NCBI GenBank assembly: GCA_031284745.1
Contig: JAITXJ010000025.1
Location: 1-51,028 of the forward strand
DNA length: 51,028 bases
Origin: Acholeplasmatales bacterium
Lineage (GTDB): Bacteria; Bacillota_I; Bacilli_A; Acholeplasmatales; Acholeplasmataceae
Reading direction: 5' to 3'
Position numbers and translations under genes: made by a program. Every line of letters begins with the position of its first letter. The first letter of the stretch is position 1. The notes under the pieces were generated by a model. It had not been told where the DNA came from. It searched no databases and worked only from the letters and a program-made list of their open reading frames with translations. This document shows positions 7,035 to 50,965 of the stretch, one piece after another.

Positions 7035-7046
7035 TTTTCTCCTTTG

Positions 7047-7070: not shown

Positions 7071-7081
7071 GGACAAATATA

Positions 7082-7090
7082 ATTATATCA
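7082..7090 (-). promoter_or_regulatory. Extended -10 promoter of rpmE
   Basis: Minus strand reads TGATATAAT, a consensus extended -10 (TGnTATAAT). No matching -35 is seen, which is common for extended -10 promoters. Transcription would start near 7075, giving a leader of about 41 bases. Confidence 0.6.
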
Positions 7091-7112
7091 CATTTGAATA
7101 ATTATTTATTTT

Positions 7113-7844: not shown

Positions 7845-8371
7845 TATTTTTTCTCCTTTTTATAAGATTCTATACACTTTTGAATTATTTTTTTTGCATT
7901 CTCTCGATTGCCAATATTTTGAATAAATGTGCGCTTTCCTTCCAACTCTTTATAAATTTCAAAGAAGTGCGACATTTCTTCGACAATATGCTTAGGCAAT
8001 TCTTCAATATTTTGATAATTATTATAACTGGGATCACCAAACGGTATCGCCACAATCTTTTCATCAATCTCATCAGAATCGATCATTTTAATCACGCCAA
8101 TAGGATAACATTTGACAAGGCTCATCGGTTCGATATCTTCTTGACATAAAACTAAAACATCCAATGGGTCATGATCGCCGGCGAGCGTCCGAGGAATAAA
8201 TCCATAATTAGCTGGATAATGGGTAGAAGTAAATAAAACACGATCTAAAATAATTAGGCCTGTTTCCTTATCTAATTCATATTTCTTCTTGCTTCCCTTG
8301 GATATTTCTATTACCGCGATAAAGCATTCGGGAGTTATTCGGTTTTCATTGATATCATGTAATATGTTCAT
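7844..8371 (-). CDS. ppa: Inorganic pyrophosphatase (family I)
   Basis: Soluble Mg-dependent enzyme that hydrolyses pyrophosphate to phosphate and pulls biosynthetic reactions forward. The 175-residue length is normal for family I. The metal-binding signature DHDPLDVLV is at about residues 65-73 (pattern DxDPxDxLV), preceded by YPANYGFIP. It shares one base with the yebC start. Upstream (8372-8544) is an AT-rich gap of about 170 bases with a TATAAT-like -10 about 20 bases before the start and a weak ribosome-binding site (GTAGAG). I see no gene or convincing RNA structure in that gap. Confidence 0.96.
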   Translation of the reverse strand: MNILHDINENRITPECFIAVIEISKGSKKKYELDKETGLIILDRVLFTSTHYPANYGFIPRTLAGDHDPLDVLVLCQEDIEPMSLVKCYPIGVIKMIDSDEIDEKIVAIPFGDPSYNNYQNIEELPKHIVEEMSHFFEIYKELEGKRTFIQNIGNRENAKKIIQKCIESYKKEKK

Positions 8372-8544
8372 AAATACTCTACTTTCTTTAAAATTATACT
8401 ATTTTTTATTTTTTTTAGCGTTTATTTGGATATTTTAAGCCATTTTAGAATTTTTTTCAGTTTTCTTTAGTTGCCGGTACTTTAATAGAAACTCTTATCT
8501 GGTTATTTTAGTCAAACCAAAAATATAATCGCTATTTTCTATGA

Positions 8545-9399
8545 CTAATTAAATTTAAGATTGTTATGGAGGCAATACAGCTGGTAAGTGTTACTTAAAA
8601 GAGAGACTACCGTTAAGGGCCCAACCCCTCCCGGAACAGGGGTTATAAATGAGGCCTTTTTTACTAGTGCTTCATAATCTACATCACCTACTAAGTTGCC
8701 TTCCAAGCGATTGATTCCCACATCAATAATAATGCACCCTTTTTTGACCATTTCCGCCGTTAGAAACTTTGGCTGGCCAATAGCACAAATAATTAAATCC
8801 GCTTTTTTTGTATGAAGGCTTAAATTTTTAGTTTTAGAGTGACAAATAGTCACTGTCGCGTTTAAATCAAGAAGCATTTTAGCAATGGGCATACCCACAA
8901 TATTAGAGCGGCCAATTACACAAGCGTTTAAGCCCGTAACATTGATATTATATTCTTTTAGGAGTAGAATGATTCCAAATGGGGTCGCTGGTCGAATAGC
9001 CGTTTCTCCTAAAAATAATTTTCCGGCATTATAGTTGCTAAAACCATCTGCATCTTTATTATAATCAATATGATTCATTAATTCTTTAATATTTAAACTA
9101 GGAGGAAGAGGTTGCTGAATAATAATACCATCAACACTCGGATCGCTATTTAATGTCTCTAGAAATTGAAGAATTTCGCGTTGCTGGACATCATCTTCAA
9201 AACGATGTAATTCCACCAAAATTCCTGATTGTTTGCCTCTTAAAATCTTCGACTTGATGTAACTATTGGAAGCCAAATTATTACCAACTTGAATAATTGC
9301 CAACTTAGGAGCTCTTTGTACTTGTAAAAAACTCCTATTAATTTTTTCCTTTAACTCAATAATGATTTTATCGGCTAGCAATTTACCATTGAGAATCAT
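8545..9399 (-). CDS. folD: Bifunctional methylene-THF dehydrogenase / methenyl-THF cyclohydrolase FolD
   Basis: Interconverts 5,10-methylene-THF and 10-formyl-THF using NAD(P). Visible marks are the substrate site with the catalytic Lys in SYIKSKILRGKQSG (about 46-59), DGIIIQQPLPP (about 94-104), the Rossmann motif VIGRSNIVGMP, and the C-terminal PVPGGVGPLTV. Length, 284 residues, is normal. It overlaps the fhs stop by four bases and so forms a pair supplying one-carbon units for purine and formyl-methionine synthesis. Confidence 0.97.
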   Translation of the reverse strand: MILNGKLLADKIIIELKEKINRSFLQVQRAPKLAIIQVGNNLASNSYIKSKILRGKQSGILVELHRFEDDVQQREILQFLETLNSDPSVDGIIIQQPLPPSLNIKELMNHIDYNKDADGFSNYNAGKLFLGETAIRPATPFGIILLLKEYNINVTGLNACVIGRSNIVGMPIAKMLLDLNATVTICHSKTKNLSLHTKKADLIICAIGQPKFLTAEMVKKGCIIIDVGINRLEGNLVGDVDYEALVKKASFITPVPGGVGPLTVVSLLSNTYQLYCLHNNLKFN

Positions 9400-10961
9400 A
9401 AAATAATATTACCTTTTTTATCTAATTTCATATCTTCATACCTTGGGTGAACACCTAGCCCCGGCAAAGTCACAATTCCCTTGGTTAAGCAAACTAATAA
9501 TTTAGATCCATTGTTGACAATAATATTGCTGATAGATAAATTAAAATCTTCCGGAACATTTAAAAGTGTAGCATCACCACTTAGGGATAGCGGGGTTTTC
9601 GCAATACACACTTGATAATCAAGATTACCGATTTTATCTAATACAAGGGCTGCTCTTTTACTAAATTCCACATTAGTGGCTCCATAAACTTTCTGGGCAA
9701 TTTGCAGAATTTTTTGTGATGGCAAATCATGAATATCATATATCCCTTTAATTTCATCCTTATGAACACAATTATCCATCACCATTCGTGCTAAATCCAG
9801 ACAGCCTTTCGCCCCTTGTTTAAAACCACGTGACTCGCAACAAGGATATCCGCGGACTTCACACCACTTGGAAACTACCTCAAGGTCCTCCTTTTTATCG
9901 GTATCAAATACATTAATTGCCACCACAAAAGGTAAATTAAATTGTTTAATATTGTTAATATGAGCCGCTAAATTTTTAAGACCATTTTCCAAAATATTTT
10001 CTTTATTGTTATATTCTCCATGATACTTTATAGCTTGAATAGTAGCAACAATAACTACACAATCAGGATTTTTTTTAATAATTGGTACCTTAATGTCCAT
10101 AAATTTTTCGGCACCTAAATCAGAACCAAATCCCGCTTCAGTAACCACAAAATTAGCATACTTAAGGCCAATTAGCGTACCAAATACACTGCTGCAACCA
10201 TGAGCTACATTCGCAAAGGGGCCAGTATGAATCAGTGCCGGACTCCCATAATAACTTTGCACAATATTAGGATTTATTGCCTCTTTAAGTAAAACCATCA
10301 ATCCCTCAACACAATTTAATTTTTTAGCATAAACATAATTATCATCAAAGTCAATTCCGATGATAATATCGCCAAGTCTGCTTCGTAAATCATCAATCGA
10401 AATACTTAAAGCTAAAATTGCCATAATTTCGGAAGCTGCCGTAATAATAAATTTACGCTTTCCATAAATTGTTTCAATATCTCTAAGAGCACGATCGTTC
10501 ATATCAATAGCTCTAGGCCAATATACTTCTTTAATTTTCAGATTGTTTCCAAAGTGAAGGTGATTATCAATGGCGGCGCTTAATAAATTATGAGCACTAG
10601 TAATTGCGTGAAAATCGCCATTAAAATGCAAATTAATCTCTGCTCCCGGCAATAAAGTCGTTTTCCCTCCCCCAACAGCACCACCTTTTAAACCAAAAAC
10701 CGGTCCCAAACTTGGTTCTCTTAGGGCTAAAATGGCTCCTTGTTTTAAGAGATTTAAACCATCACATAAACCAATTGAAATGGTTGTTTTCCCCTCTCCC
10801 TTGGCAGTGGGAGTCATCGCTGTCACTAAAATTAATTTGCCTTGCTTATTTTTATCTGATTCCAAACATTTAATATTAATTTTAGCTTTTTCATTAGGAT
10901 AAAAAGTAACATATTTGCTTTCAATTCCTAATTTTTTAATCGTACTTTTTAATTTATCCAT
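9396..10961 (-). CDS. fhs: Formate-tetrahydrofolate ligase
   Basis: ATP-dependent ligase that makes 10-formyl-THF from formate and THF, feeding FolD. The nucleotide site TPTAKGEGKTTISIGL is at about residues 51-66; LREPSLGPVFGLKGGAVGGG follows. At 521 residues it is about 35 shorter than the usual 555, mainly because the N-terminus begins directly with a short MDKLKSTIKKLGI helix and C-terminal segments are trimmed. The ATG is supported by AAGGAG seven bases upstream, so no longer start is needed. A tRNA-Arg ends only 25 bases upstream on the same strand. Confidence 0.96.
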   Translation of the reverse strand: MDKLKSTIKKLGIESKYVTFYPNEKAKINIKCLESDKNKQGKLILVTAMTPTAKGEGKTTISIGLCDGLNLLKQGAILALREPSLGPVFGLKGGAVGGGKTTLLPGAEINLHFNGDFHAITSAHNLLSAAIDNHLHFGNNLKIKEVYWPRAIDMNDRALRDIETIYGKRKFIITAASEIMAILALSISIDDLRSRLGDIIIGIDFDDNYVYAKKLNCVEGLMVLLKEAINPNIVQSYYGSPALIHTGPFANVAHGCSSVFGTLIGLKYANFVVTEAGFGSDLGAEKFMDIKVPIIKKNPDCVVIVATIQAIKYHGEYNNKENILENGLKNLAAHINNIKQFNLPFVVAINVFDTDKKEDLEVVSKWCEVRGYPCCESRGFKQGAKGCLDLARMVMDNCVHKDEIKGIYDIHDLPSQKILQIAQKVYGATNVEFSKRAALVLDKIGNLDYQVCIAKTPLSLSGDATLLNVPEDFNLSISNIIVNNGSKLLVCLTKGIVTLPGLGVHPRYEDMKLDKKGNIIL

Positions 10962-17690: not shown

Positions 17691-20432
17691 ATGAAAAGGA
17701 TTATATTATTATTCGTTTTAAGCCTTACACTTAGTTTGATTGCGTTTGGTTGTAAGCCAGCAACACCTCCTCCACCACCGCCACCTCCACCACCCGTTTA
17801 TTCTAACTATGTAATTACTTATTTAGTTAAGTATCCTGACGATGGTAATTATTTTACTTATAAATCTGTCTTATACAATACTGCTAACCCCTTTAATTTT
17901 GAAACTGGTCCCGATGATCAAGGTAATTATTATTTTAATGGCTGGAGTGCTAGCCCTGAAGGAACAATTCTGCCAACAACATATCAAGTAACTAGCGATC
18001 TTAATCTTTATGGCTGGTATTCGTTAGATCTTCCAGATTTTGCTCTAGAAATTGGCGACATTTTAAGTTGGTTTGAAATCAATTATTCTTATGCCTTTGA
18101 AACTGGGTGGACCTACGGAAATTTCCTAGTCACCGAACACGGCATGTTGGATGCCATCGCCAATGATAGTACCAATCCTAATGGTCTAACTAGAGATTAT
18201 CGTGATGTCATGCACTATAGTTATTTAGAAGGTTCCACAATTCATTTCTTTCGAGGCAATGAATTTGGTTTTGCTAGTTACAACGAACGATACAATTTAG
18301 CAACTTTCAATGAATATAATATTTATAATCAATTAATTTTTAATGATGATGATAATTATGTCACGATCAACCTAAATGGCGAATTTAACTACGATGGCAG
18401 TTTCTCCTATGAAAAAAATATTGCCTCTTTCTTTGCTCGCTTAATTTTAGGTGATGAACTCGGCTATTGTCGCGCAATTGAGATAGAATTCGTCGACGAT
18501 ACCTTAATTGTTTATGGGATTGCTAAAGAAGCATTTTCCTTTCTAGAATTACCTGGCGTTTTGAGTCCAAGTGGTAAACCAGTTATTTTTACTAGTGAGT
18601 TTAATGATATTGACACCACCGAAATTGGTCCTTTTACCGAATTTTACTTATCTAATACCATTCCCGTCTATGGTGATCTTGGTAATTGGGATGATTTACT
18701 TAGCGTCTTAAATCAACAAATGTATGTCGTCTTGAATGAAGACGTGGAAGATGCCTATCTTGCTTTAGTTTCTGTACTTCCAAGTATACCAGGAGAATTA
18801 GATTTTGATTATTATAGCGAACCTGATTCTGTTTACTATTTTTCGCGAATTTCTTTTGCAATTTTCAATAAAACCGAAAGTGACTTAGCTTTATTTGTTC
18901 AACAAGCTTTTCCTCTATCGATGGGTATCGATGATGAATGGGGTTTATATTTAGTTAATGATCCCATTAAAATTTATTTATTGCCTTATTACAATCAAAG
19001 TGATCAAATCTTGGTTATGAACTTTTATTTCCAGCATTATGGATTGTGGCCAGAATTACAAGTCAATAATCTAATTCATAACACCTTCCCTGATATTGAT
19101 GTTCCACCTCTTTTAGGAGCAGTTCGTTATTATTTTAGTAGTAACTTTACAGGAAATTACGTGGTTGCTTACTTAGAGGCTGGACAAAGTCCCCAAGCAA
19201 TGGTCGAAACTTGGATTGCTTATCTACTAAACAATCATGGTTATTTACGAGTAATGACTAATCAGGGCGAGCAAATTCAAGATCCAAGTAAGCGAATTGC
19301 CTTGTATTTCCAAACCTTTAATGATTTTGGTCCGGAAGTTATGATTGATTTTATGCTGGCAAGTCCCGGAGCAGAGATTGGTTGGCCAATCACCCAATTA
19401 AATGATTTAGGCCTCAATATTATCCCTGAGTGTGATGGCCAATTTTACTCCATTGGTTATCAATCAGTCATCGATGCCTGGCTCATTAGTGTCATTAACC
19501 CAAATATTGGTTTTTATGAATATCAAGCTCTACTAACTTCTTTGGGTTTTACAAGAGTGTTTGAGGATCCTGCGTGGTCAACAATGTATTCCTTTTTAGC
19601 TCCTGATGGTATTCATCAAGTAACTGTCTCTAATCGAACATTTGAAGGTCAATATTGGATTACAATCTATGATCGAGTTTCTAGTCCCTTAGTTTATACT
19701 TCCTATATTCCCTCTTCATTAAATACTCTTATTGGTCCAAACTATTTAGATATACCGTTTGCTCAAGGAGCAGGAGCATCTTATAGTTTAATTAATTCTT
19801 ATTTAATTTTTGGACAAGGGATGGAAGATGTTCCTTCTAACTTAAGATATAATGTTTGGGGAATCTACTCAATTAATTTAACACCAGAAGAAATTACAAC
19901 CTTTTATGCGAATTTTATCGCTGGGGGCTGGGCTCGTGGGGAGTTTGGAATGTATTATAGTGATCAATATCCCGGCTTAGGAATTAATTATATTGATTTC
20001 TTGGATGGTTCAATTTTAGTGGGCGGGGCTAATTACTATTATGGTTATAGTAATGCTAATGCAGCTATTTCCGCGGCCATTGCGGCTTTCTTATTGAAGT
20101 ATCCAACTTATTCAACGCAAATCAATGATATATCAGATGCCTTTCCTAGTTTACCAAATAATAGTTATCAAACTACTTTAACATATATTTATGGTTCACC
20201 CCAGGGATCAGAACAAATGGAAATTGCCATTACTGGCATTAATAATACAACAGCAACTACCTTTCGCAATGAGTTGTTTGCAAACTACTCCTTCCAACCA
20301 CTGCCAAACAATCGTTATCAGGGGGCCCTATGGAGTCAAAGAGGCTATGCAAATATTAGCGGGGGAACAATCTGGTTTGATATTACCTTAGCTTATTTCA
20401 GCAATGTATTATATATTTATATAAGGAACTAA
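17691..20432 (+). CDS. Large secreted lipoprotein: polyproline linker, InlB-type repeat and tandem ~100-residue modules
   Basis: 913 residues. A signal peptide ends in a weak lipobox (IAFG before Cys21), followed by a run of ten prolines (about 27-36) using mixed codons. Residues about 39-113 resemble a Listeria-Bacteroides (InlB B-type) repeat: FNGWSASPEGTILP then LYGWYS. The remainder has no recognised enzyme motif. From about residue 345 to the end I see about five degenerate units of 95-115 residues. Units starting WPELQVNNLI (about 453) and WPITQLNDLG (about 565) are clearest, each with a later 'L...GY/GF' turn and alternating Tyr/Phe-rich strands. The same unit type occurs in the next gene and in the metalloprotease gene at 46185. 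Probably an anchored surface protein; function unknown. Confidence 0.85.
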   Translation: MKRIILLFVLSLTLSLIAFGCKPATPPPPPPPPPPVYSNYVITYLVKYPDDGNYFTYKSVLYNTANPFNFETGPDDQGNYYFNGWSASPEGTILPTTYQVTSDLNLYGWYSLDLPDFALEIGDILSWFEINYSYAFETGWTYGNFLVTEHGMLDAIANDSTNPNGLTRDYRDVMHYSYLEGSTIHFFRGNEFGFASYNERYNLATFNEYNIYNQLIFNDDDNYVTINLNGEFNYDGSFSYEKNIASFFARLILGDELGYCRAIEIEFVDDTLIVYGIAKEAFSFLELPGVLSPSGKPVIFTSEFNDIDTTEIGPFTEFYLSNTIPVYGDLGNWDDLLSVLNQQMYVVLNEDVEDAYLALVSVLPSIPGELDFDYYSEPDSVYYFSRISFAIFNKTESDLALFVQQAFPLSMGIDDEWGLYLVNDPIKIYLLPYYNQSDQILVMNFYFQHYGLWPELQVNNLIHNTFPDIDVPPLLGAVRYYFSSNFTGNYVVAYLEAGQSPQAMVETWIAYLLNNHGYLRVMTNQGEQIQDPSKRIALYFQTFNDFGPEVMIDFMLASPGAEIGWPITQLNDLGLNIIPECDGQFYSIGYQSVIDAWLISVINPNIGFYEYQALLTSLGFTRVFEDPAWSTMYSFLAPDGIHQVTVSNRTFEGQYWITIYDRVSSPLVYTSYIPSSLNTLIGPNYLDIPFAQGAGASYSLINSYLIFGQGMEDVPSNLRYNVWGIYSINLTPEEITTFYANFIAGGWARGEFGMYYSDQYPGLGINYIDFLDGSILVGGANYYYGYSNANAAISAAIAAFLLKYPTYSTQINDISDAFPSLPNNSYQTTLTYIYGSPQGSEQMEIAITGINNTTATTFRNELFANYSFQPLPNNRYQGALWSQRGYANISGGTIWFDITLAYFSNVLYIYIRN

Positions 20433-20487
20433 TATATTTTAAAATATATATTAAATATAGAATTAACATTTTTTATTGGAGGAATTT

Positions 20488-23400
20488 ATGAAAAAAATTG
20501 TTATCACTCTTAGTTTAATTTTAGGGTTGGTAGTTACAGGTTTAATTCTTGTAAGTTGCACACCAGAACCTAAAGTTGAAACTTACAATCTCAATGTTAC
20601 AAATCAAAATCCTGATTTGGGTACCATCTCTGGCACCCCGAATGGTACCTATGATGAAGGCACAACAATTAGCGTTTCGGCTGATCCGAATGCAGGAGCT
20701 TCTTTTACGGGTTGGTATCAAGATGGTGTTTTAATCGTTACAGCCGAAGATTATAGTTTCCCAATCGATCAGGACACTAATTTGGTGGCGCATTTTGCGG
20801 TCTTACCAGTTTATTATTCCTATAGCGTTTCTTCACAAAGCACCGACCGAGGAACCGTAGCTGGCACTGCCAGTGGTAGTTATTTAAAGGGATCTGCTCT
20901 TCGAGCAATTGCTAATGCTAAATCAGGCGCTTATTTTACTGGTTGGTATCAAGCAAATCAATTAGTATCTTCTTCATCGACTTATGATTTTACTTTAGAA
21001 GCTGATACTACTTTAGTTGCCCACTTTGAATTAGAAATAATTCATTACACCTTGTTAATATCTTCGGAAAATTCACTTTATGGTAGTGTCTCTGGTTCAC
21101 CTAGTGGACAATATGATGAAAATACCACCTTGACAGTAGTCGCAACCGCGGTTGATGGAGCTTCTTTCGATGGATGGTATAGTGGCACAACTTTAGTATC
21201 TAGTGATTCTCCTTATGTCTTTGATTTAGTAGGCAATATCACTTTAGTGGCTAAATTTTCGCAAATAGCTACTGATACTGTGGAAATAAACGGCGCTCCT
21301 GAATGGGCTTTAGTTGGCGATTCATTTACAGTTGGTGTTACTATTACACCTTCTAACTCTTGGTTAGCCTATCATCCCGCTAATTTGGTGGTTACTCCTT
21401 CGGCAAGCGCAACTCTTGGCAGTGATGGTCTCGTGACAATTTCTGCTGCTACTACCGTTAATATTAGTTATGTTTTAAATGATTCCACCGTTTTAGCAAG
21501 CCAAAATATCATTGTTTTACCTGATATTTCAACCTTAGGAACTAATTTTACCATTACTTCCGGCACTAAGACTTGGGTGGCTGCGGAAGGTTTTTATAAA
21601 GAAATTACCTCCGGAGTAGAAACTCTCGCCTATATTCGTAATGTTCAAGATCTTTATTGGCGAGTTACGAAAGATAATTTAGGCGCACCCGTCGGTGTTA
21701 CTTGGCATGTATCGATGGATGCCTCGGTAGCTTATAACACAATTTCCACCAATACTTTATTTTCTAGTTCGGAAGGTATTGTTTATTCCGCTAATGTAAT
21801 TACTTTGTATTCCTCTAATCCCGATTCTTTATTAGCTAAATTAGCACAATTTAGTTCCGCCTTAACTGGGGTACCGGTAGCTTATGCTTATTGGGATAAT
21901 GGTGTGCTCAATATCTCTGATGGAAATTCTACTGTCGTAACAATTAGTGGATTTGGTGAATCAGTGGATGAACGTTTATCAAGACTATATGAATCAGGTT
22001 CCACCAATGTTCCTCAAACAGCTTGGATTGCAACTTGGGCGGAAATCGGTAGTGTTTATGCTGCTTCGATTGACTCAGTCATCTTTGACTTAATTCCTAA
22101 CGAAAGTCAATATCACCTCTTCAAAAGTCCTTTCTTTTCTAGTGAAGAATATTATAATATCCTCGAGGCAACACTGGTTGATATAGATTATTCCCAATAT
22201 GTGGCCTACTTAAATGGTTTACAAATACCTCTAGTTGGCGGAAGATACAACGTTAGTGTCGATCCAGGCTTAAAATTATTAGTAGCTAATCTGAGCGGAA
22301 CCTTAATTGGTCTATATATCGAAAAACCACTTGATAAAGTTTGGCCAGAAGCTCAAATTATTAGTCTCATCAATAATAATCTTGGCGTCACTGTGGGAGT
22401 TAACGCTCCAGCGTTCGAGGGTGGCGATGCTTATATTGCTAAATACGTCTCCGATTTTAATCAATATGTACAAATAAGAGTATTATTCTTAAATTCGCAG
22501 CCAAGTGCCGCCAGTGCCGCCCCATACCTTCAAGCCTATTATGATAATTTACTAGCTGCCGGTTGGCATTATGTTGCAACAACTGATGGTATCAACCTTG
22601 TAAATGCCGCTAATAACCTACGAGTAACCGTTTCCTATTCGGATTGGTCTTATTACTTTGAAATAAATATTTATAAAGTAACAACCATCACTCCACTTCC
22701 TTCTTCCTGGCCAACCGCTAGTTTAGTTAGTAATTTAGGCGCGAGTGTGGCGGATGTTCCCCAAATTGCCGGAATTGGTTTCAATTATTTCTGGAACTCC
22801 TTTGATAATTATGCAACAGTTCGGGTCTATGCTGTGGGTATAACTACACAGTCTTACATAAATATTTTAAACGCTAATGGTTACCTAGTAATCTTCCATA
22901 ATCCTCGTATGTGGGATGGTTCTGGTACTAGTTATGTTAATGGAACTTGGCAGATTACCGTATCCAACAATGGAACTAATATCATTGATATTCTTATTTA
23001 TGCAGAAGTTGATCCATTACCTGCGTTTAGTTCAAGTTGGCCAGCTGAAGTTAATGTCTTTTCACCAGTTGCAATCGTTCCCGAATTAGTATATCCAACC
23101 GCTCAATTTGCCGTGGTTAAAAATACCGCTTCGGTTTTACAAATTTATATTATCGGCCTTAGTGGTTATAATGCAGCTGTTTATGCCCTCACTTTAGCGA
23201 TGGCCGGCTGGCAGGTTGATATTAATTCTTTAGTAGCAACTCATCCTTCTGATCCCGGAGTTGTTCTATCCTTAGCGCTCTTAGCTAATGATGGGGCCTT
23301 AGTAACCATAAATAAGACCACCTTTAACACAACTTGGGATAGTTTCTTAGTGGCTATCGGTGCTCGATATAACTATGCCTTTACTAGCGTTATCTTCCCT

Positions 23401-23658
23401 TCAATTGGGACATTTACGGGAATTAGTTGGGACCCAGCTCAATCAACTGGAGCCAACAAAACCACAATTACCATTACCGGCGTTGATCAAGCAACTTATG
23501 AAAATTGGTTTGCTTTACTAGCCGCTACAACTGGTTGGCAAGTATTCAACGGGGGAACCCAATATGATTACCGATTAACCGGCATGTGGCCTTCCATTTC
23601 CGATATCGTTTATAATGCTCAAACCCAAACTTTAGTCTTTTCTTTCCGCGTTTGGTAA
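20488..23658 (+). CDS. Large secreted lipoprotein: three InlB-type repeats and tandem ~100-residue modules
   Basis: 1056 residues from ATG 20488, chosen because GGAGG lies five bases upstream; an in-frame TTG at 20476 precedes that site. The signal peptide ends in a good lipobox (LVSC, Cys24). Three divergent InlB-type repeats follow (about 31-104, 108-182, 184-259), each with 'GTV/SG..SG.Y..G', 'FTGWYQ' and 'LVAHF'. An Ig-like stretch may follow to about 350. The C-terminal half has repeated modules starting WPEAQIISLI (about 618), WPTASLVSNL (about 740), WPAEVNVFSP (about 850), with 'Y...L...GW' inside each, and a last one near 969. It lies 55 bases after the previous lipoprotein gene, separated only by an AT-rich palindrome, so the two are probably co-transcribed paralogues. 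Confidence 0.87.
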   Translation: MKKIVITLSLILGLVVTGLILVSCTPEPKVETYNLNVTNQNPDLGTISGTPNGTYDEGTTISVSADPNAGASFTGWYQDGVLIVTAEDYSFPIDQDTNLVAHFAVLPVYYSYSVSSQSTDRGTVAGTASGSYLKGSALRAIANAKSGAYFTGWYQANQLVSSSSTYDFTLEADTTLVAHFELEIIHYTLLISSENSLYGSVSGSPSGQYDENTTLTVVATAVDGASFDGWYSGTTLVSSDSPYVFDLVGNITLVAKFSQIATDTVEINGAPEWALVGDSFTVGVTITPSNSWLAYHPANLVVTPSASATLGSDGLVTISAATTVNISYVLNDSTVLASQNIIVLPDISTLGTNFTITSGTKTWVAAEGFYKEITSGVETLAYIRNVQDLYWRVTKDNLGAPVGVTWHVSMDASVAYNTISTNTLFSSSEGIVYSANVITLYSSNPDSLLAKLAQFSSALTGVPVAYAYWDNGVLNISDGNSTVVTISGFGESVDERLSRLYESGSTNVPQTAWIATWAEIGSVYAASIDSVIFDLIPNESQYHLFKSPFFSSEEYYNILEATLVDIDYSQYVAYLNGLQIPLVGGRYNVSVDPGLKLLVANLSGTLIGLYIEKPLDKVWPEAQIISLINNNLGVTVGVNAPAFEGGDAYIAKYVSDFNQYVQIRVLFLNSQPSAASAAPYLQAYYDNLLAAGWHYVATTDGINLVNAANNLRVTVSYSDWSYYFEINIYKVTTITPLPSSWPTASLVSNLGASVADVPQIAGIGFNYFWNSFDNYATVRVYAVGITTQSYINILNANGYLVIFHNPRMWDGSGTSYVNGTWQITVSNNGTNIIDILIYAEVDPLPAFSSSWPAEVNVFSPVAIVPELVYPTAQFAVVKNTASVLQIYIIGLSGYNAAVYALTLAMAGWQVDINSLVATHPSDPGVVLSLALLANDGALVTINKTTFNTTWDSFLVAIGARYNYAFTSVIFPSIGTFTGISWDPAQSTGANKTTITITGVDQATYENWFALLAATTGWQVFNGGTQYDYRLTGMWPSISDIVYNAQTQTLVFSFRVW

Positions 23659-28049: not shown

Positions 28050-29521
28050 GAAAATATAGCGAACAACAAAATTTTCGAATAGCCAAAATAGCTCAACTCC
28101 AAAAGTTAGGAGTTTTACCATTTGGAGAAGCTTTTTCCAAAGTGGATGATTGTGCTTCTTTAAAAAAAAATTGGGATAGTCTGGATTCAGCGTCGCTTGA
28201 AGCGAAAAATGTTGCGGTCAAATTAGCTGGCCGCATTGTTTTACAAAGAATCCAAGGAAAGGCCGGTTTTATCACAATTCAAGATGGTTATGGTCGTATC
28301 CAAGTTTATGTACGTTTAGATAATGTTGGACCTGAGTCATATGAAATTTTTAAATTAGGTGACCTCGGAGATTTTGTGGGTGTTGAAGGTGTTCTTTTTC
28401 GGACCCACACCAATGAATTAACCATTAAAGCCTATAAATATACCCATCTTTCCAAAGCTATTACTCCCCTACCAGATAAATTTCATGGTTTACAAGATGT
28501 CGAAGAAACTCGCCGTAAAAGATATTTGGGAATGATTACTTCCGAAGAAGTAAAAACCGTGGCTTATACACGACCAAAAATTATTCGTAGTATTCAAAAT
28601 TACTTCGATACGAAAGGTTTCATTGAAGTAGAAACTCCGGTTTTACAACCTATTTTAGGAGGAGCAAGTGCTAAACCCTTCATTACTCATCATAACGTTT
28701 TAGACATGGACTTTTATTTACGGATTGCTACGGAATTGCCTTTAAAAAAATTAGTTGTTGGCGGTATGGAAAAGGTCTATGAAATTGGTCGACTTTTTCG
28801 TAACGAAGGAATGGATGCCAAACATAATCCGGAATTCACCACCGTTGAGGCTTACATGGCTTATGCCGATGTCCACACGATGATGGATTTAGTGGAAGAT
28901 TGTTTAAGTACTGTGGTGAAAAATATCACCGGTAGTTATGACCTTAAGTTTGGTGATTTAGATTTGCATATCCATGATTTCAAAAGAATCTCCATGGTTG
29001 AGGCAATCAAAGAAGTTATTCAAGTGGACTTTAACACGGTTAAAACTTTGACAGCAGCGAAAAAACTCGCTACTAAGCACCACATCGAAGTTCCCGCTCA
29101 TTTTAAAATTGGCCACATTATTGAAGCCTTTTTTGATCAATTTGTGGAACCAACCATTATTCAACCAACCATTATTTATCACCACCCAATTGAAATATCT
29201 CCGCTTGCCAAAAAAGCCGCTGATCCCCGCTGGGCTGAACGTTTTGAATTATTTATTGCCGGAGCAGAATACGCTAATGCTTTTAGTGAACTCAATGATC
29301 CGTTAGACCAATTGGAACGTTTTGAAGCCCAAGTGAAAGAAAAAGCCTTAGGCAATGAAGAAACCTGCGAAGTTGATTTAGACTACATTGAGGCCCTAGA
29401 ATATGGCTTACCACCAACTGGCGGTATCGGCATCGGGATTGATCGTTTAATTATGTTAATAACTAATACCCCTAATATTCGTGATGTCATCCTCTTTCCC
29501 CATTTAAGGAAAAATAAATGA
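28046..29521 (+). CDS. lysS: Lysine-tRNA ligase (class II)
   Basis: Charges tRNA-Lys. The 491-residue protein has the N-terminal OB anticodon-binding domain (about 58-150, with 'LAGRIVLQRIQGKAGFITIQ') and the class II catalytic domain: motif 2 RLFRNEGMDAKHNPEFTTVE (about 250-269) and motif 3 GGIGIGIDRLIMLI near the end. It is coupled to the S4-domain gene upstream and overlaps the S41-like lipoprotein gene downstream, both by ATGA. Confidence 0.97.
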   Translation: MRKYSEQQNFRIAKIAQLQKLGVLPFGEAFSKVDDCASLKKNWDSLDSASLEAKNVAVKLAGRIVLQRIQGKAGFITIQDGYGRIQVYVRLDNVGPESYEIFKLGDLGDFVGVEGVLFRTHTNELTIKAYKYTHLSKAITPLPDKFHGLQDVEETRRKRYLGMITSEEVKTVAYTRPKIIRSIQNYFDTKGFIEVETPVLQPILGGASAKPFITHHNVLDMDFYLRIATELPLKKLVVGGMEKVYEIGRLFRNEGMDAKHNPEFTTVEAYMAYADVHTMMDLVEDCLSTVVKNITGSYDLKFGDLDLHIHDFKRISMVEAIKEVIQVDFNTVKTLTAAKKLATKHHIEVPAHFKIGHIIEAFFDQFVEPTIIQPTIIYHHPIEISPLAKKAADPRWAERFELFIAGAEYANAFSELNDPLDQLERFEAQVKEKALGNEETCEVDLDYIEALEYGLPPTGGIGIGIDRLIMLITNTPNIRDVILFPHLRKNK

Positions 29522-31287
29522 AAAAATTGTTCTTAATTCTTCTTTCTGTTTTATGTATTGGTACCTTATATAGTTGCCAATGGCTGAATAATTTCTTTAA
29601 TCCCAGTGTCAAATTAGTGGAAGATTATAATGTCGTAATCAGTGAAAGAAGAACAGCTGATTTCATCAACTATGCTGATGAATATCATTTACAAAATAGT
29701 TCAACCACCATTTATTATTTAGATAATGAAGGCGTGCCTTATGTCGATATCCAACAAATGTTCAATCTTTTAAAGGGATTTTTACATAGTGAAGTTTTAT
29801 ATTATCGCAATATTAGCAATCATGAAACTAAAATTTATTATTATGTTAATTTAGCTTCGAATCCCTTAACTTGTATCCTTAATTACCAGCAAGATTCCAT
29901 TGAGGCCAATACTTATAATTTCTTTCAATATTATGTTTATCAATCAGAAAATACCAACGCTGCTAAATATTTATCATTGAGTGGTTCCACCGAATATGGC
30001 GATCAAAGTATCAAATATTCACTTCAGCCTTATGGCTTTAATGTTCTAGCTATCAAAGACGAAGGAGAAGTTAAAAGTTTAATGCCTTTGAGTATTTTTT
30101 CCATGATCTTCTTAAGTGCTGGTTACTATAGTCTCTATTATAATGGCACCACCCTTAATGGTGTTGATCTAATCAATGACAAAAACAGTGCTTTCTACGA
30201 GGCAGTACGTCAGGGAGAATATAACGACACTAATAAGAGTCCCTCTTTGATCAATGCCACTTATCAAAGTTTTATTTTTGGTCTCGATTATTTTTATGGC
30301 TTACGCGAAGACCCAGAAACCAGTTATCGAAATTTAATATCACAAGAATACCAAAATTTAATGCTTTCTACCAATAAAGAAGACAATACCTTAGGTTATT
30401 CAAGTTTTGTTTATCAATATTTAAATGAAGGTCATTCCTCCTACCAAGGACCATCACTATATGATTCCCCCAATGCCAAGTTTAATTTACAAAATGTTAG
30501 TGAACTAGGTAGTCGAATGCAAGAAAGATATCAAGTAAATCAATTATTAAATGAAAAATTTTCTCAACGCTTTAATGGGGCTCTAACCACCGATGATCTT
30601 TATAGTATCGTTCCCGCTGTTCGTTATCAAAATAATACCGCAATCATCTATCTTGATCAATTTAATAATGGGGTAGAGGAAGAAATATACAATAGCGATG
30701 GCACCTATCGAAGTGAAGCTTATAAATCTGATGCTGATGCCCTTTTAAATAAAGCCATGACCGATATTCAGACTCATCCCAATGTTGATAAGGTGATTCT
30801 TGATATTAGTCGCAACCCTGGAGGCAACTTAGGGGCCCTTTTACGGGTCTTAGGATACTTAACTGATGAGCCCATCAGAAATGCCATGGTCTATAATTAC
30901 ACTAGGTCTTTAAGTATTACCAACTACCTTACAGATACTAATCGTGATCAAAACCCCGCCAATGATGCCTATAGCGAATATAATTGGTATTTATTGATTT
31001 CTCCCGTTTCCTATTCGGCCGCCAACATTGCTGCTTCGATTTTTTCTAACATGAATTTAGGAACCATCATAGGTCAAAAAAGCGGTGGAGGGGCCTGTGG
31101 AATCCTTCCATTAATTCTGGCGGATGGTTCAACTATCGTCATTAGTGGTCCTAATAAATTTGTCACCGCCAATGAATTTAATGATAGTTGGATATACTGG
31201 GATAATGAACTGGGAATATTTCCCAATATCTACATCGATTATAAAAACTTTTACGATGATGCTTATCTAGAAAGCATCCTAAATTAA
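29518..31287 (+). CDS. S41-family peptidase lipoprotein
   Basis: 589 residues with signal peptide and lipobox LYSC (Cys20). The C-terminal part is a tail-specific (S41) peptidase fold: VILDISRNPGGNLGALL (about 424-440), a probable catalytic Ser in SYSAANIAAS (near 498) and a Lys in GQKSGGGA (near 519), matching the usual Ser-Lys dyad spacing of about 20 residues. The N-terminal 300 residues are rich in Tyr and Asn and unfamiliar. No PDZ domain is obvious, unlike most CtpA proteins, so it is closer to the secreted C-terminal-processing-like group. It sits at the end of the tilS-lysS run and is followed immediately by a membrane protein gene. Confidence 0.85.
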   Translation: MKKLFLILLSVLCIGTLYSCQWLNNFFNPSVKLVEDYNVVISERRTADFINYADEYHLQNSSTTIYYLDNEGVPYVDIQQMFNLLKGFLHSEVLYYRNISNHETKIYYYVNLASNPLTCILNYQQDSIEANTYNFFQYYVYQSENTNAAKYLSLSGSTEYGDQSIKYSLQPYGFNVLAIKDEGEVKSLMPLSIFSMIFLSAGYYSLYYNGTTLNGVDLINDKNSAFYEAVRQGEYNDTNKSPSLINATYQSFIFGLDYFYGLREDPETSYRNLISQEYQNLMLSTNKEDNTLGYSSFVYQYLNEGHSSYQGPSLYDSPNAKFNLQNVSELGSRMQERYQVNQLLNEKFSQRFNGALTTDDLYSIVPAVRYQNNTAIIYLDQFNNGVEEEIYNSDGTYRSEAYKSDADALLNKAMTDIQTHPNVDKVILDISRNPGGNLGALLRVLGYLTDEPIRNAMVYNYTRSLSITNYLTDTNRDQNPANDAYSEYNWYLLISPVSYSAANIAASIFSNMNLGTIIGQKSGGGACGILPLILADGSTIVISGPNKFVTANEFNDSWIYWDNELGIFPNIYIDYKNFYDDAYLESILN

Positions 31288-38684: not shown

Positions 38685-38724
38685 ATAAGTACTAGATACT
38701 ACCCAATTTAGTAAGGGAATGAAA

Positions 38725-40221
38725 ATGATGGATGCTACAACATTAAAAGAAAAAATGCAGAAAATAATCGAATATTATCAACCATATGGTTCGACGATTA
38801 TTAAAGTGAAGGATAAGATAATCTTTGAAGATTATTTTGGTTGGGAAACCAAGGATAAATCCCCAATTACCAAAGATACCCTTTATAATATTGAATTACA
38901 ATCCAAGTTTTTATTAACTCTCGCTACGATGAAACTAGTCGAACAAAAATTATTAAAATTAAATACTAAACTTTCTACCCTTTTAAATTTAACTGGTGAA
39001 GTTGGCCAGTTGAGCGTTCGCAAGATTTTACTATGCAAAGACCAACTTTTAGATTTTAATTCACAAAGACTTCAAGAAATGAATAGGGATGAGGAGTATC
39101 AAAAATTAGATCCTATTGAAAAAAAACTTCAAGATTTTTGCTTAACTGCTCGGCAAATAACTGATCAGGAATACCATAATTTTCTTGCTCAACAACCATT
39201 AAAGGGAGTAGTGGATATTGATACCGATTGCCGACGTTATATTTTAAAACAAATTATTCAAAAGATCACTAAGAAAGATTTTTTTGATTATTTACAAGAG
39301 GATATCTTTAGTAAGTTAGATATCACTATTTACAGAAATTTTAACTATCAGGTGGCTAATTACACTTCGCGTTTTAGTGATTCTAAGATGCGACTCATCA
39401 CGCTCAAAGACCCTTTAGTTGCTACTATCGGCTTAAAGATGGGTGATCTAGCTAAATTTCTCGAAGCTTTTTTTCATGGAACAATTATTAATGAGGAAAG
39501 CTTAAAATTTTTAGGACCAAAGCGCCATAATTTTGGTCTTTTAATCGATTATGAAAAAGGTTTTTATGGCGTGCAAATGGAATTTTTAACCACAACCTTC
39601 CAAGGTTATTATAATAAGCAACAAGATACCTTACTCATTTTGGCCTTAAATCATAAGGGACTCTTAATCCCAGGGCCAGTTAATGATGAGTCCTACATTG
39701 GTGACTTATTGCGGTTGGTCAATGAATACAATTTTCAATACTCCCACCCCACATTAGTACCCTTAACTTCCAAATGGATTCATAGCGCCATCGAGATCGA
39801 ACTAAAACCAGAACAATATCGCTATGTTTGTAATGGTGCAGCCACTATTGCTTGGTGTAGTGTTTATGCAAAAAACAAATTAATGGTTCTGGTCGATAAT
39901 GAGATTGCCGTTGGCTTATGCTCTTTATATCAAGATAAGACTAAGAATTACTATTCAATCGATTCAGTAATGGTTGATAAAAAATATCAAAACTTGGGTT
40001 ATGGAAAGCAAATTATTCAACAGTCTCTGGCCATATTACAAAAGAAAGGATGCAAAGTCATCAATATTGGCGTAAGCATGGAAAACATTGCCGCCTATCA
40101 TATTTACTTGAATGCCGGATTTAAAATTAAAAACATGGATGCCTGGGGATATGATCTGGTTTGGGAAGATAGTTATTTAGCTAGTCCTATTCCTGGGCTG
40201 GCGAAATTGAACGATCAATAA
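38725..40221 (+). CDS. Serine-hydrolase-like (beta-lactamase fold) domain fused to a GNAT acetyltransferase
   Basis: 498 residues from ATG 38725, seven bases after AAGGG (an ATG at 38719 is too close to that site). The N-terminal 330 residues have the outline of class C beta-lactamase/serine hydrolases: 'ITKDTLYNIELQSKFLLTLATM' (in parts DTLYNIELQSK), 'LNTKLSTLLNL', 'DFFDYLQEDIFSKLDI'. The nucleophile of the SxxK motif is replaced: the aligned residues are LQSK, and the Tyr-x-Asn element is not seen, so it is probably inactive. The last 130 residues are a GNAT domain with the acetyl-CoA loop KYQNLGYGKQII, 'SVMVDKKYQNLG' and 'NIAAYHIYLNAGFK'. Substrate unknown. Confidence 0.8.
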   Translation: MMDATTLKEKMQKIIEYYQPYGSTIIKVKDKIIFEDYFGWETKDKSPITKDTLYNIELQSKFLLTLATMKLVEQKLLKLNTKLSTLLNLTGEVGQLSVRKILLCKDQLLDFNSQRLQEMNRDEEYQKLDPIEKKLQDFCLTARQITDQEYHNFLAQQPLKGVVDIDTDCRRYILKQIIQKITKKDFFDYLQEDIFSKLDITIYRNFNYQVANYTSRFSDSKMRLITLKDPLVATIGLKMGDLAKFLEAFFHGTIINEESLKFLGPKRHNFGLLIDYEKGFYGVQMEFLTTTFQGYYNKQQDTLLILALNHKGLLIPGPVNDESYIGDLLRLVNEYNFQYSHPTLVPLTSKWIHSAIEIELKPEQYRYVCNGAATIAWCSVYAKNKLMVLVDNEIAVGLCSLYQDKTKNYYSIDSVMVDKKYQNLGYGKQIIQQSLAILQKKGCKVINIGVSMENIAAYHIYLNAGFKIKNMDAWGYDLVWEDSYLASPIPGLAKLNDQ

Positions 40222-46184: not shown

Positions 46185-49100
46185 TTAACTCCAAGTTAAT
46201 GTTATATTCGCAAAGCCATTACCAATACTACCGTTAATGGTAATAATGACATTGATTGCGCTCGAATTGGTATCCCAAGTATAGTACTGTCCAAGATTAA
46301 GGGTTCCACTCCTTAGGAGATCACCACTTTTCACCCCGCTGGAGCGAATGGAATTATTATGGTCGGCTTCCAGAATTTCAATTAAATTATTCGAACTAGC
46401 TGATTCATTATCATATAGAAAATTCATCCACCAACTATTACCCGAAGAATAAACATTGGAATTGACATGGTAAATCACTACCCCATCAACCGTTGGTAAG
46501 ATTCCCTGATTACTATGTGCAGCATACAAACCTTCCCCGGCTTCATAATACATAATCAAGAGATATTCACCAAAAATCGAGCCATTCCAGCTACTTCCAT
46601 AAGGAATTAAAATCGTATCTCCTGCAATTTCATATTGTGGTAAATTGAATGTAAAGGTTCCATGTGTAGCAATATAAGGTTCAATCCAACCAAAGAAGAA
46701 TTTATTAAAAGGACCATGATCACCACAATTATAATCTTGCATATCAAAACCACCAAGAGGACCACGGTTGCTATTGCTATATAAATCTGTCATACCCAAC
46801 ATATGACCAGTTTCATGGATGTAGGTTTCCGCATTTCGGCCACTGATGACACCACTTAAACCCGTATCGCTCGCAAAATTAATCGAAGCCCATTGATAAT
46901 ATTGTAATTTCTTACCATCAACAGTCACGTTTTTTAAACCAGTAGCTTGCGGAAGATAAACCCAAGCCCACCAAGGATCGGTACTGTAATCATAACCGCG
47001 CGAGTAAATGAAATATACTCCATCTAAGGTCCCATCGTTATTATTATCATATTGAGCAAAATTAATCGTCGAGTCCATTCCCACTAAGGCTTCACGAATA
47101 ATATCCTGATCACGATAATTAGCGTATTGTCCCGAACTAACTTGGTAACTCGCATAATTTTTTGAAGCCGTAAAGACAGGTGAAATATCAAAAGTAACAT
47201 TTAAGTTTCCATAAGAAGAAACTCTTAAATAAGAGCTCACGCTTTCCCAACCTGTTTCCGCATGAGTACCATTGAAAACATAATTTAAATTATTTAATTC
47301 GGTCGTGGTAAAACTATCATTAGGAAATTGAACAGGAATGACTAAAGAATGATAGGTCCCCACACTCGGCATACTGGTATAGGACATGTTCGACTGGTAT
47401 TCATAAATATTTTGATAGCCAGTTCCACTATGTGGATAAGGAATATTATAAGGAGGAGTTCGATCTTCGGTTAAAGTCCATCTAACACCATAAGTTAAAT
47501 TTTCTAAAGTAAGATAAAACTCTTCACCCACCAAATAATAGCCATTACTATTTTCTAAATAACCTAAGCCAGCTAATTCAGCTAAATATTGATTTAGGGT
47601 TACGCTATTCCAATCTAAAATATTTACCTCAATATTAATGGTAAATTCACCACTATTATTCACCAAATTCACATAATAAGCTTCAATATTCGAAACTAAT
47701 AAAGCGGAAACATTAGAGCCATAAATAGAATTAATTTCACTATAAGGGAAAGCATCGACAAAAGGTCCTTCGTCCACAATGCTATAACTAATATAAATAT
47801 GATGCAAGTAAATGGCACGATTAACCAGTGATTTTAAATTAAGATTAAAAGAACTACTATGAACATTTAAATCTTCCACCACATAATTAATCACCGAAGT
47901 TGATTCAAAATGATATTCGGATAAATAATTACCAAAGCCAATTTGCGCTATCGCACTTCCTCCCGCGGAAACACTTAATCCTAGGGAATAGCCATGAATA
48001 ACGACGTTACTTGGTAAAGTAGTATTAAGTAACCAATAAGCTAATTGCGGATTAGCGGTGGTGCCAATTTGCAAACCCTTCGTTGAACTAAAACTAATAG
48101 CGCTCATCGCTTGCGATTGCCAGGACCAATTTAAATTACCGACGTTATTGATAATACCACCACCAATATTTACTTGTCCACTAACTAATTGCCACTGATA
48201 GTCAAAATCTAAAACCAATATCTTTTTAACTTCCACCTGATAACTAATTGCCTTATTAACACTACCTTCTTGATAATTTATGGTAACATTATAAAACCCA
48301 GCTATACCCCATAAAATTGATGAAGCATTAATCGTATAACTTGTCACATTTTGAAAAGTGCTATTGCTATAAAAAGCCCGAACTTCCAAGCCCAAAGTAT
48401 TAAGACTAGTGGCTTCTAAACTATAAGTTGTTTGCTCAGGGAAAGCCACTAAGGAGATGCTTGTTAAAGTATAAACAGTTAAATCATAAGAAGCATAAAT
48501 AGTAACCGCATGATAGGTATAACTAATTAAAACATTATAAACACCAGTTACCCCCCACACCACATTCGATAAATCGATGTCTACCGCAACTACTGCGATA
48601 GTGGAATCACTATAAGTAACTTGAAATTCGAGGCCAGCACTACTATAATCACTTAACCTTTCATCAATATAATAATTTTGTTTAGGAAAATTTAAGAACA
48701 TTCCGCCCACCGGAGTTACAAGAATAATTTCAATATAAAAACTTGTTGACTTCGTAATGCTATTATGAGTATAAGAAACAATGACTTGATAACTACCACC
48801 AAAGCCATAATTAATATTTGAAGTATTAATAACTAATTCACTAAGAGCGAGAATACTAGTAACACTATCACTATAATTAGCTCTTACAATTAGACCCGTT
48901 ACATCAATTTCTAAATCAGCATCACTATATTGAGTAATATATGGTAAACTAATAATTTCAATTGATTGGAGAGTTAATACTTGGTATACAGCATAATAAC
49001 TTTGATTTTGACTAACTGTGCCCAACGGAATAATTTGCCCAAAAGGCGATAAACTCCAACCCAATAATTCCCCACTGACTTGGCCATTATAACTAATTTG

Positions 49101-49871
49101 TTGACCATAATGATAGGTTTGACTAATACTGGTAAGATCATCAATAACAAAGGTAATTACATAGTCAATATAACTACTACTATATTGAGCTGTATAGCTA
49201 GTGTTGGTAGTAGCTATCGTTAATTGTGGGTTCCAACCACTAAAGGTATAGTTATAAACATTATCACTTGGTTTAGTTGGCACTAAATTAGTGGTTACAA
49301 CTTCATTCTTTTGAAAACTAACAGTTTCTAAAAGACTTCCATCATAATTTAAAAAAGTAATAATAACTGAACCATTAGAATAGCTATAAATGTGAATATA
49401 GCTGCTTAGAATAGTTATTTCTTCAAGAGTAACAGAATATTGAGAATCTAAATAAAAGCCATTTAATTGACTGCTTTCATAACCAGGTATAACTATTTGG
49501 CTCAATACTAAGATATTATCGACTGTTGGCACATAATAAGCATTATTATCTAGATGAACATAAGCCCCAAAGGTATTAACAAACAAAGCAACAATTACTT
49601 GATTGTTAGCTTTAACTTTTAAAGTATCGCTTAATTCAATAAGAATATCGTTTTCAAACCATCCAACAAAGGTATAACCATCATCACTAATTGCCTTTAA
49701 AGTAGCAAGTTCATTTTTCTTATAATTAGTCTTTAGTCCGGTTACTTCCCCATTTTCATAATTAACTGTAATTTTATAATTAGTATTACCAAAAAATCCA
49801 TTACAAGCAACTAAAATAATAGTAGAAACAATAATCACTAATAATAATCCTAATTTTTTCATTTTATTCAT
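46185..49871 (-). CDS. M6-like zinc metalloprotease lipoprotein with InlB-type, Ig-like and shared repeat modules
   Basis: 1228 residues. Lipobox LVAC (Cys23). InlB/Listeria-Bacteroides-type segments lie at about 31-100, 170-230 and 238-296 (marks: FVGWFEN, ITFLNYDG, LLGWSLSPFG). Three Ig-like (Big_3-type) repeats at about 297-565 each end 'I.WG..G.Y.V.I.Y'. A 705-800 segment (FPYSEINSIY ... YLAELAGLGY) matches the modules of the lipoproteins at 17691 and 20488. The catalytic domain follows (about 815-1130): SYLRVSSYGNL, a Ca-type loop YDNNNDGTLDGV, and HETGHMLGMTDLYS (near 1019), the HExxHxxGxxD zinc motif of M6 proteases. Start has GAGG eight bases upstream. It leads maf-hslO-ABC. Likely a cell-anchored degradative or processing protease. 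Confidence 0.88.
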   Translation of the reverse strand: MNKMKKLGLLLVIIVSTIILVACNGFFGNTNYKITVNYENGEVTGLKTNYKKNELATLKAISDDGYTFVGWFENDILIELSDTLKVKANNQVIVALFVNTFGAYVHLDNNAYYVPTVDNILVLSQIVIPGYESSQLNGFYLDSQYSVTLEEITILSSYIHIYSYSNGSVIITFLNYDGSLLETVSFQKNEVVTTNLVPTKPSDNVYNYTFSGWNPQLTIATTNTSYTAQYSSSYIDYVITFVIDDLTSISQTYHYGQQISYNGQVSGELLGWSLSPFGQIIPLGTVSQNQSYYAVYQVLTLQSIEIISLPYITQYSDADLEIDVTGLIVRANYSDSVTSILALSELVINTSNINYGFGGSYQVIVSYTHNSITKSTSFYIEIILVTPVGGMFLNFPKQNYYIDERLSDYSSAGLEFQVTYSDSTIAVVAVDIDLSNVVWGVTGVYNVLISYTYHAVTIYASYDLTVYTLTSISLVAFPEQTTYSLEATSLNTLGLEVRAFYSNSTFQNVTSYTINASSILWGIAGFYNVTINYQEGSVNKAISYQVEVKKILVLDFDYQWQLVSGQVNIGGGIINNVGNLNWSWQSQAMSAISFSSTKGLQIGTTANPQLAYWLLNTTLPSNVVIHGYSLGLSVSAGGSAIAQIGFGNYLSEYHFESTSVINYVVEDLNVHSSSFNLNLKSLVNRAIYLHHIYISYSIVDEGPFVDAFPYSEINSIYGSNVSALLVSNIEAYYVNLVNNSGEFTINIEVNILDWNSVTLNQYLAELAGLGYLENSNGYYLVGEEFYLTLENLTYGVRWTLTEDRTPPYNIPYPHSGTGYQNIYEYQSNMSYTSMPSVGTYHSLVIPVQFPNDSFTTTELNNLNYVFNGTHAETGWESVSSYLRVSSYGNLNVTFDISPVFTASKNYASYQVSSGQYANYRDQDIIREALVGMDSTINFAQYDNNNDGTLDGVYFIYSRGYDYSTDPWWAWVYLPQATGLKNVTVDGKKLQYYQWASINFASDTGLSGVISGRNAETYIHETGHMLGMTDLYSNSNRGPLGGFDMQDYNCGDHGPFNKFFFGWIEPYIATHGTFTFNLPQYEIAGDTILIPYGSSWNGSIFGEYLLIMYYEAGEGLYAAHSNQGILPTVDGVVIYHVNSNVYSSGNSWWMNFLYDNESASSNNLIEILEADHNNSIRSSGVKSGDLLRSGTLNLGQYYTWDTNSSAINVIITINGSIGNGFANITLTWS

Positions 49872-50275: not shown

Positions 50276-50965
50276 CTATTTAGTGTGATCTGGCACCCCT
50301 AATATTTTTCTTATTTGATAATCTAGGCTACGATCAAGCCTTAATGGATTACGATTAAAATCTGTGCGGCCTGGCATTTGATTTAAATTAATGTAGGCAT
50401 CTTGATCATTGTCTTCCTGCGGAACCGGAAAAGCTAGTTCTTCGATGGAGGAAACATGTACTAAAGCAAAACAAATATTAGTCCAATTGACTGCTAGATT
50501 ATAAGAAACAGATGATGCATCAATAGTTAATTGAATCTTCCGGGGATTATCTTTAGAAATTAAATTAAATGAAAGTATTTCTTCAAAATATAATACCGTA
50601 TGCACAAAATTATTTTGCGTTACTGAAAAACCATCCGGTGTTTCAAGAAGAACTATTTGAAAACCAAGGACCATATCCAAAAAAGGGTCTTCCATAGGCA
50701 GAACTTTTTTTTCGTATTCATCGTATAGGGGTTCCCACTGTCCCAGACTATTATATAGACCTACACTTCCTACATCAATTTCTACTGGAACGTGATATAG
50801 ATCTTGATCCCACGTATCACTAACTTTGACGCTAATGAAATAGTAAAATTTGGGAATTGTGGATGGCGTGGTTTCAGTTCCTTTCTCACCTTCAACCTTC
50901 ACACTACAAGAACTAATCAGTAAACTTAAAATAACTGTTAATAAGATTAAATAGAGCTTCTTCAT
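50276..50965 (-). CDS. Lipoprotein of unknown function
   Basis: 229 residues. Signal peptide with lipobox ISSC (Cys20), then a Thr/Ser/Pro linker and a compact domain of mixed strands with no motif I recognise. The C-terminus has an acidic stretch (PQEDNDQDAY) and a basic end (RNPLRLDRSLDYQIRK). AAGGAG lies seven bases upstream of the ATG. The start overlaps the stop of a gene entering from the right edge (ATGA), so it is the second gene of a group. It lacks the repeat modules found in the other large lipoproteins. Confidence 0.8.
   Translation of the reverse strand: MKKLYLILLTVILSLLISSCSVKVEGEKGTETTPSTIPKFYYFISVKVSDTWDQDLYHVPVEIDVGSVGLYNSLGQWEPLYDEYEKKVLPMEDPFLDMVLGFQIVLLETPDGFSVTQNNFVHTVLYFEEILSFNLISKDNPRKIQLTIDASSVSYNLAVNWTNICFALVHVSSIEELAFPVPQEDNDQDAYINLNQMPGRTDFNRNPLRLDRSLDYQIRKILGVPDHTK

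Follow-up and report, generated by a model that had tools for sequence, protein, structure and literature searches.

Architecture of the protease and the lipoproteins

The window, i.e. the whole analysed stretch of 51,028 nucleotides, belongs to a genome of 968,181 bases in 49 contigs and carries on its reverse strand an open reading frame of 1228 amino acids (46185..49871), which encodes an M6-like metalloprotease lipoprotein according to the ORF list and the TIGR03296 M6 domain. The match to TIGR03296 covered residues 845-1070 with an E value of 3.6e-23 and a score of 82.9 bits. This score is under the curated cut-off of 110.8, and we therefore use the name "M6-like"; the ortholog of A. oculi scored 87.8 bits with the same model. 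PF05547 matched neither the protease nor any other protein of this genome, and 14 control genomes likewise gave none. The catalytic domain, delimited by a profile of 18 sequences including that of the window, occupied residues about 832-1225 (46197..47378, reverse strand). The alignment columns placed the zinc-site motif HExxHxxGxxD at residues about 1019-1029 as HETGHMLGMTD (46785..46817, reverse strand), and the H, E, H, G, and D of this M6 peptidase motif were invariant in the 18 M6-like sequences.

The N-terminus of the protease was read from the sequence as a signal peptide (residues 1-23, 49803..49871, reverse strand) with ILVAC, which we take to be lipobox-like from general knowledge. 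A divergent InlB B-repeat followed at residues 32-98 (49578..49778, reverse strand), supported by PF18998 (E 2.6e-9) and by BLASTP to lipoprotein 2 (1e-5). The segment under study, located by profile matches, lay at residues about 706-798 counted from Met (720-812 in stop-to-stop numbering; 47478..47756, reverse strand), with FPYSEINSIY starting at residue 708 and YLAELAGLGY at 762, and the zinc-site motif was found some 220 residues past it. A 229-aa lipoprotein with no Pfam match (50276-50965, reverse strand) adjoins the protease.

The two lipoproteins are encoded on the forward strand. Lipoprotein 1 (913 aa, 17691..20432) carried about five modules over its last 580 residues, as judged from self- and outside profiles, and lipoprotein 2 (20476..23658) contained three InlB B-type repeats (PF18998, E 1.1e-27, three stretches) followed by about five modules. 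The tandem units of both proteins were diverged in the profile comparisons, with some 100 residues each. The InlB B-type repeats at the N-termini represent a second and plainer tie between the protease and lipoprotein 2, which was absent from the earlier note. The window also encodes an S41-type peptidase lipoprotein of 589 aa (29518..31287, forward strand; PF03572, 1e-14, and BLASTP) with no module insertion.

Relationship of the protease segment to the lipoprotein modules

Direct comparison of the protease with the lipoproteins gave null results. BLASTP found nothing significant over the module region, the profile of the lipoprotein modules alone scored the protease at -3.0 bits, and hhalign of the protease and lipoprotein module profiles gave a probability of 0.2%. 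The poor alignment of the ten diverged modules may partly explain the null results of BLASTP and hhalign. A single-sequence search of 101 genomes with the lipoprotein 2 modules returned only lipoprotein 2 itself, and neither the protease-only profile, which did find the protease, nor the S41-only profile found the lipoproteins above decoys. The bare motif was no more frequent in the protease than expected by chance, with at least one copy in 362 of 1000 shuffles, while the three copies seen in lipoprotein 2 were reached by 3 of 1000 shuffles.

The search of 101 genomes with the protease, together with full-ORF comparison, showed that the segment recurred ahead of the M6 domain in the orthologs. 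A profile of 13 seed copies, among them the window segment, matched 24 copies at 48.9-136.8 bits in eleven other proteases (two of them near-identical), with one to five copies each. The window segment scored 1.5e-26 with this profile, which itself contained it, and 3.3e-4 with a profile of the protease modules of relatives from which the window rows were excluded.

The protease and the lipoproteins were connected by way of intermediate sequences, namely a 688-aa module-only lipoprotein encoded on contig C23 of the same genome and the large module proteins of relatives. An iterated search, seeded only from the ten lipoprotein modules, was run over 314 ORFs together with 628 decoys made by reversal or shuffling. 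It recruited modules of the S41-type, module-only, and protease kinds; the window protease was matched at 4.6e-5 before it became a member, and none of the 628 decoys was admitted. Reversed or shuffled seeds produced no drift. With the profile seeded from the C23 lipoprotein and with the ORFs of the window withheld, the window protease reached 8.1e-9 and outranked every decoy from round two onwards; lipoprotein 2 reached 3.5e-4 in the last round at a stricter threshold, and some middle rounds put decoys above it. When two distant Bacilli proteins served as seeds, the values in the last round were 2.5e-5 for the protease, 2.7e-4, 7.8e-4, and 3.5e-3 for lipoprotein 2, and 0.044 for lipoprotein 1, against 0.16 for the best decoy.

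The individual modules were placed with an outside profile of 83 modules from module-only proteins, which contained no window row and no protease row but did include the C23 proteins of the same genome. In lipoprotein 2, this profile matched residues 623-744 (22342..22707) at 8.2e-10 and 745-854 (22708..23037) at 2.0e-8; residues 855-953 and 954-1060 (23038..23655) scored 0.36 and 2.4e-3, and were also delimited by the self-profile. In lipoprotein 1, residues 565-676 (19383..19718) scored 1.6e-3 and residues 453-564 (19047..19382) 0.023, and the modules at 677-785 and 786-913 (19719..20429) were delimited by the self-profile, the C-terminal one matching an outside profile at 0.044; all of these lie on the forward strand. 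The protease scored 2.2e-4. The best of the 628 decoys scored 0.056, and the three window proteins ranked above all of them, in register. The profile used to recruit many of the relatives (A7) had window sequences in 7 of its 32 rows, so the recruitment was not fully blind.

Judged from these profiles, the protease segment and the tandem modules of both lipoproteins almost certainly belong to one domain family. The earlier note had proposed that the segment is built like the lipoprotein modules and that the module is common to all three proteins. Both proposals held: pairwise comparison of the segment with the modules was null, but profiles built with intermediates were clear, no decoy among the 628 did better than the match at about 706-798, and the predicted order of structural elements was the same.

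Conserved positions and predicted fold

The "Y..L..G" plan could be refined to Y-x3-L-x3-G-[FWY] (family columns 54, 58, 62, and 63), preceded by a proline and two strands, and it is present in the protease as YLAELAGLGY. Over 95 thinned modules, the proline was conserved in 97%, Y in 88%, L in 87%, and G in 87%, together with an aromatic residue after G (89%), an aromatic residue at column 72 (94%), and aliphatic strands; the maximum for a polar residue among the listed conserved columns was 53%, for D. The proline before the first strand was missing from the window protease module, which has LLVSN there. Since 3% of the other modules also lacked it, this proline is not strictly defining for the family. 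From their sequence, the conserved positions look like the signature of a fold rather than a binding site, and they decide neither for nor against a ligand.

The AlphaFold2 model of the protease segment, computed with 21 modules from relatives, had a pLDDT of 62.7 and showed helices at 9-16 and 55-67 and strands at 28-36, 42-50, 85-87, and 100-103. The model of one lipoprotein 2 module (residues 742-850) had a pLDDT of 74.0, with helices at 6-13 and 50-59 and strands at 32-35, 38-46, 63-68, 76-80, 84-90, and 95-103. The two alignments behind these models (A4 and A6) had no module in common, and the one for the lipoprotein consisted solely of modules from the window lipoproteins and from L105. 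When compared by order of the elements rather than by superposed coordinates, the two models agreed at this modest confidence, with helix-strand-strand-helix-strand-strand in the protease and the same order followed by two more strands in the lipoprotein.

Foldseek of both models against the PDB gave no match at E <= 0.001, and the first matches (kinases, DcrB) were not trusted. The best of the weak PDB neighbours was TP0453 (Z 4.8) for the protease model and DcrB (6e8a; Z 6.5, 3.3 Å over 79 residues) for the lipoprotein model, which also had TP0453 at Z 5.6. The structural neighbours of the models thus belong to α+β folds of the DcrB, BamC, START, and TP0453 type; with Z below 8 and no sequence match, the likeness may reflect just a common arrangement. 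An M6 prodomain was absent from the neighbours listed for the models, an absence that excludes nothing. The module region had no sequence match in Pfam, NCBIfam, or the PDB.

Occurrence of the module in related genomes

The protease-type profile matched 18 of 160 genomes of the order, and a module match was found in 41 of 395 genomes of the class. Orthologs of the protease were present in Acholeplasma laidlawii, A. oculi, and Paracholeplasma vituli, all Acholeplasmatales, and the module occurred also in other families of the class. The module-bearing ORFs, from 49 genomes, were of three kinds: M6-like, S41-type, and others with no M6 or S41 match. By a crude pattern, 35 of the 53 listed module-bearing ORFs outside the M6 kind had lipobox-like N-termini.

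In the relatives, one to six copies of the module stood ahead of the M6 domain. Among 36 distinct M6 proteins, 16 had the module; its last copy ended 26-27 residues before the M6 domain in 14 of them and 32 and 36 residues before it in the other two, the window protease being the one with 36. When the window module was compared by profile with other copies, tandem and module-only copies gave 16.3 and 17.7 bits and last copies 6.9 bits. The M6 paralogs of the same genome (contigs C12, C23, and C31) and the M6 proteins of Clostridia carried no module. Because 20 of the 36 distinct M6 proteins lacked it, the module is not a general M6 prodomain, and on the evidence of this distribution, the possibility raised beforehand that the segment is a standard prodomain of this kind was not borne out. 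Contig C31 encodes two M6-like lipoproteins in tandem (5976-10046), both without modules. A stretch of about 7.5 kb on contig C23 (3123-5186 and 6927-10482) encodes the 688-aa module lipoprotein together with two further proteins, one of 647 aa that has the module and a 541-aa M6 protein that does not.

The module was found in 15 of the 17 S41 proteins seen, in all 15 between two parts homologous to the S41 protein of the window; the alignment pieces overlapped the module edges in four of them. BLASTP of the window S41 protein against one such protein (P0001), for instance, gave two pieces (6e-25 and 4e-16) flanking the module. The two proteins without it were that of the window and a 339-aa ORF located where a fetched stretch ends. 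S41 proteins with and without the insertion offer a natural comparison for testing the role of the module. The reading of the ~880-aa proteins as a housekeeping enzyme drawn in by profile drift was rejected, as they are S41-type lipoproteins.

Possible roles of the module

The protease segment very probably represents a single copy of an extracellular module, mobile, non-catalytic, and ~100 residues long, that is reused in surface lipoproteins. With a predicted helix-strand-strand-helix-strands fold, it would be employed by Acholeplasmatales and other Bacilli in three settings: in module-only proteins as tandem arrays, ahead of an M6-like domain as one to six copies, and within S41-type peptidases as one copy. 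Homology, architecture, the near-constant distance to the M6 domain, and the S41 insertion are results of the analysis. The points that count against this explanation are the null result of the direct protease-lipoprotein comparison, the failure of the protease-only and S41-only profiles to find the lipoproteins, the missing proline in the window module, the modest pLDDT, the weak PDB matches, and the window rows in the recruiting profile. The lipid anchor would tether these proteins to the outside of the membrane. The tandem arrangement suggests spacing or recognition, and the arrays may thus serve as spacers or recognition rods; the fixed position beside M6, like the S41 insertion, points to a function close to the active site, where protein substrates might meet the module as an exosite or gate. 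A role in recognition or as an exosite can be put forward tentatively, at a little under an even chance, and a mainly structural spacer role is a possibility of perhaps one in three.

The module could be a plain structural spacer, like the bacterial Ig repeats, that binds nothing and is shared through easy shuffling alone. This seems possible, with a likelihood well below even; it is consistent with the core-like character of the conserved positions and with arrays that adjoin InlB B-type, aBig_2, and Big_2 domains, but it does not readily explain the S41 insertion and the fixed distance to M6. The Ig-like repeats (aBig_2 PF20578, Big_2 PF02368) are likewise tandem extracellular spacer or recognition domains and occur in module-bearing proteins. 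Bacterial Ig repeats are all-β, whereas the module is predicted to have helices among its strands. The InlB B-repeat, or Listeria-Bacteroides repeat (PF18998, PF09479), is likewise a small surface-protein repeat present in module-bearing proteins, but it is a different sequence family, which Pfam places at the N-termini and not over the module.

It is unlikely that the last module is a juxta-catalytic prodomain or gate, which would cover or prop the M6 active site and be removed or moved for activation. The spacing of 26-27 residues from M6, seen in 14 of the 16 module-bearing proteins, and the insertion inside the S41 peptidase point to such a function, but more than half of the distinct M6 proteins (20 of 36) do without the module, which also occurs far from catalytic domains in tandem arrays and in enzyme-free proteins; moreover, the window copy is nearer to the tandem and module-only copies than to the last copies. 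InhA and PrtV are M6 peptidases with an N-terminal prodomain. The proteins described here resemble them in having a module ahead of an M6-like catalytic domain, but the module and M6 profiles matched no PDB chain, and the module is not constant among M6 proteins. A bolder proposal, which we consider quite unlikely, is that M6-like and S41-type enzymes, two unrelated protease families, have each placed a portable substrate-handling domain beside or inside the catalytic domain in Acholeplasmatales and related Bacilli, where it would set which proteins are cut at the cell surface, with the module-only lipoproteins collecting those same targets or acting as decoys for them.

The earlier note had gone further and suggested a common ligand or docking surface and a surface system for capturing and degrading polymers. 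In such a system, the lipoproteins would collect a polymer bound by the shared modules and the protease would cut it. Neither suggestion found support. The conserved columns consist of P, Y, L, G, aromatic, and aliphatic residues, and with no strongly conserved polar position (none listed above 53%), one common ligand for the protease and lipoprotein modules is improbable. The presence of one module type in the protease and in both lipoproteins, all from one genome, and a third module-only lipoprotein of that genome (C23, 688 aa) close to another M6 gene, would fit a system of capture and degradation, but the other M6 genes of the genome lack the module, and co-occurrence across related genomes revealed no regular pairing. 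Of the 49 genomes, 24 had module-only proteins alone, 9 had M6 alone, 9 had S41 alone, and 5 had M6 and S41. M6 and other module ORFs occurred together in two, the window genome and G034, and the other ORF of G034 (L097, 640 aa) runs off the end of its contig and seems to be a truncated protease. With G034 discounted, module proteases and module-only lipoproteins were paired in 1 of the 49 genomes, that of the window; sampling was uneven, and as the genomes known only from the 160-genome scan were searched with the narrower protease-type profile, some pairings could have escaped notice. The system as a whole is thus very doubtful, and polymer capture and degradation is a guess.

A chance or compositional likeness among β-rich, Y/S/N-rich surface proteins, which would account for the negative pairwise tests and for a bare motif not enriched in the protease, is already disfavoured and highly improbable, as decoys of the same composition never entered (0 of 628), reversed or shuffled seeds did not drift, and the outside profile matched the three window proteins in register and better than any decoy.

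In kind, the module is an ordinary reusable surface module, of a family to which sequence searches of Pfam, NCBIfam, and the PDB gave no name. The work defines this family in Acholeplasmatales, named species among them, as well as in further families of the class, and ties two unrelated surface proteases to many lipoproteins with no recognised enzyme domain. The search records for literature on Acholeplasma metalloproteases, lipoproteins and repeat domains, surface proteins and peptidase S41, and immune inhibitor A propeptides contained no such module; in the retrieved part of PMC4221730, the sole "metalloprotease" was FtsH.

The genes between the protease and lipoprotein loci were mostly housekeeping among those scanned. 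One ORF of the window (38719-40221, forward strand) combines a beta-lactamase-like domain (PF00144, residues 28-203) with a GNAT acetyltransferase domain (residues 384-468).
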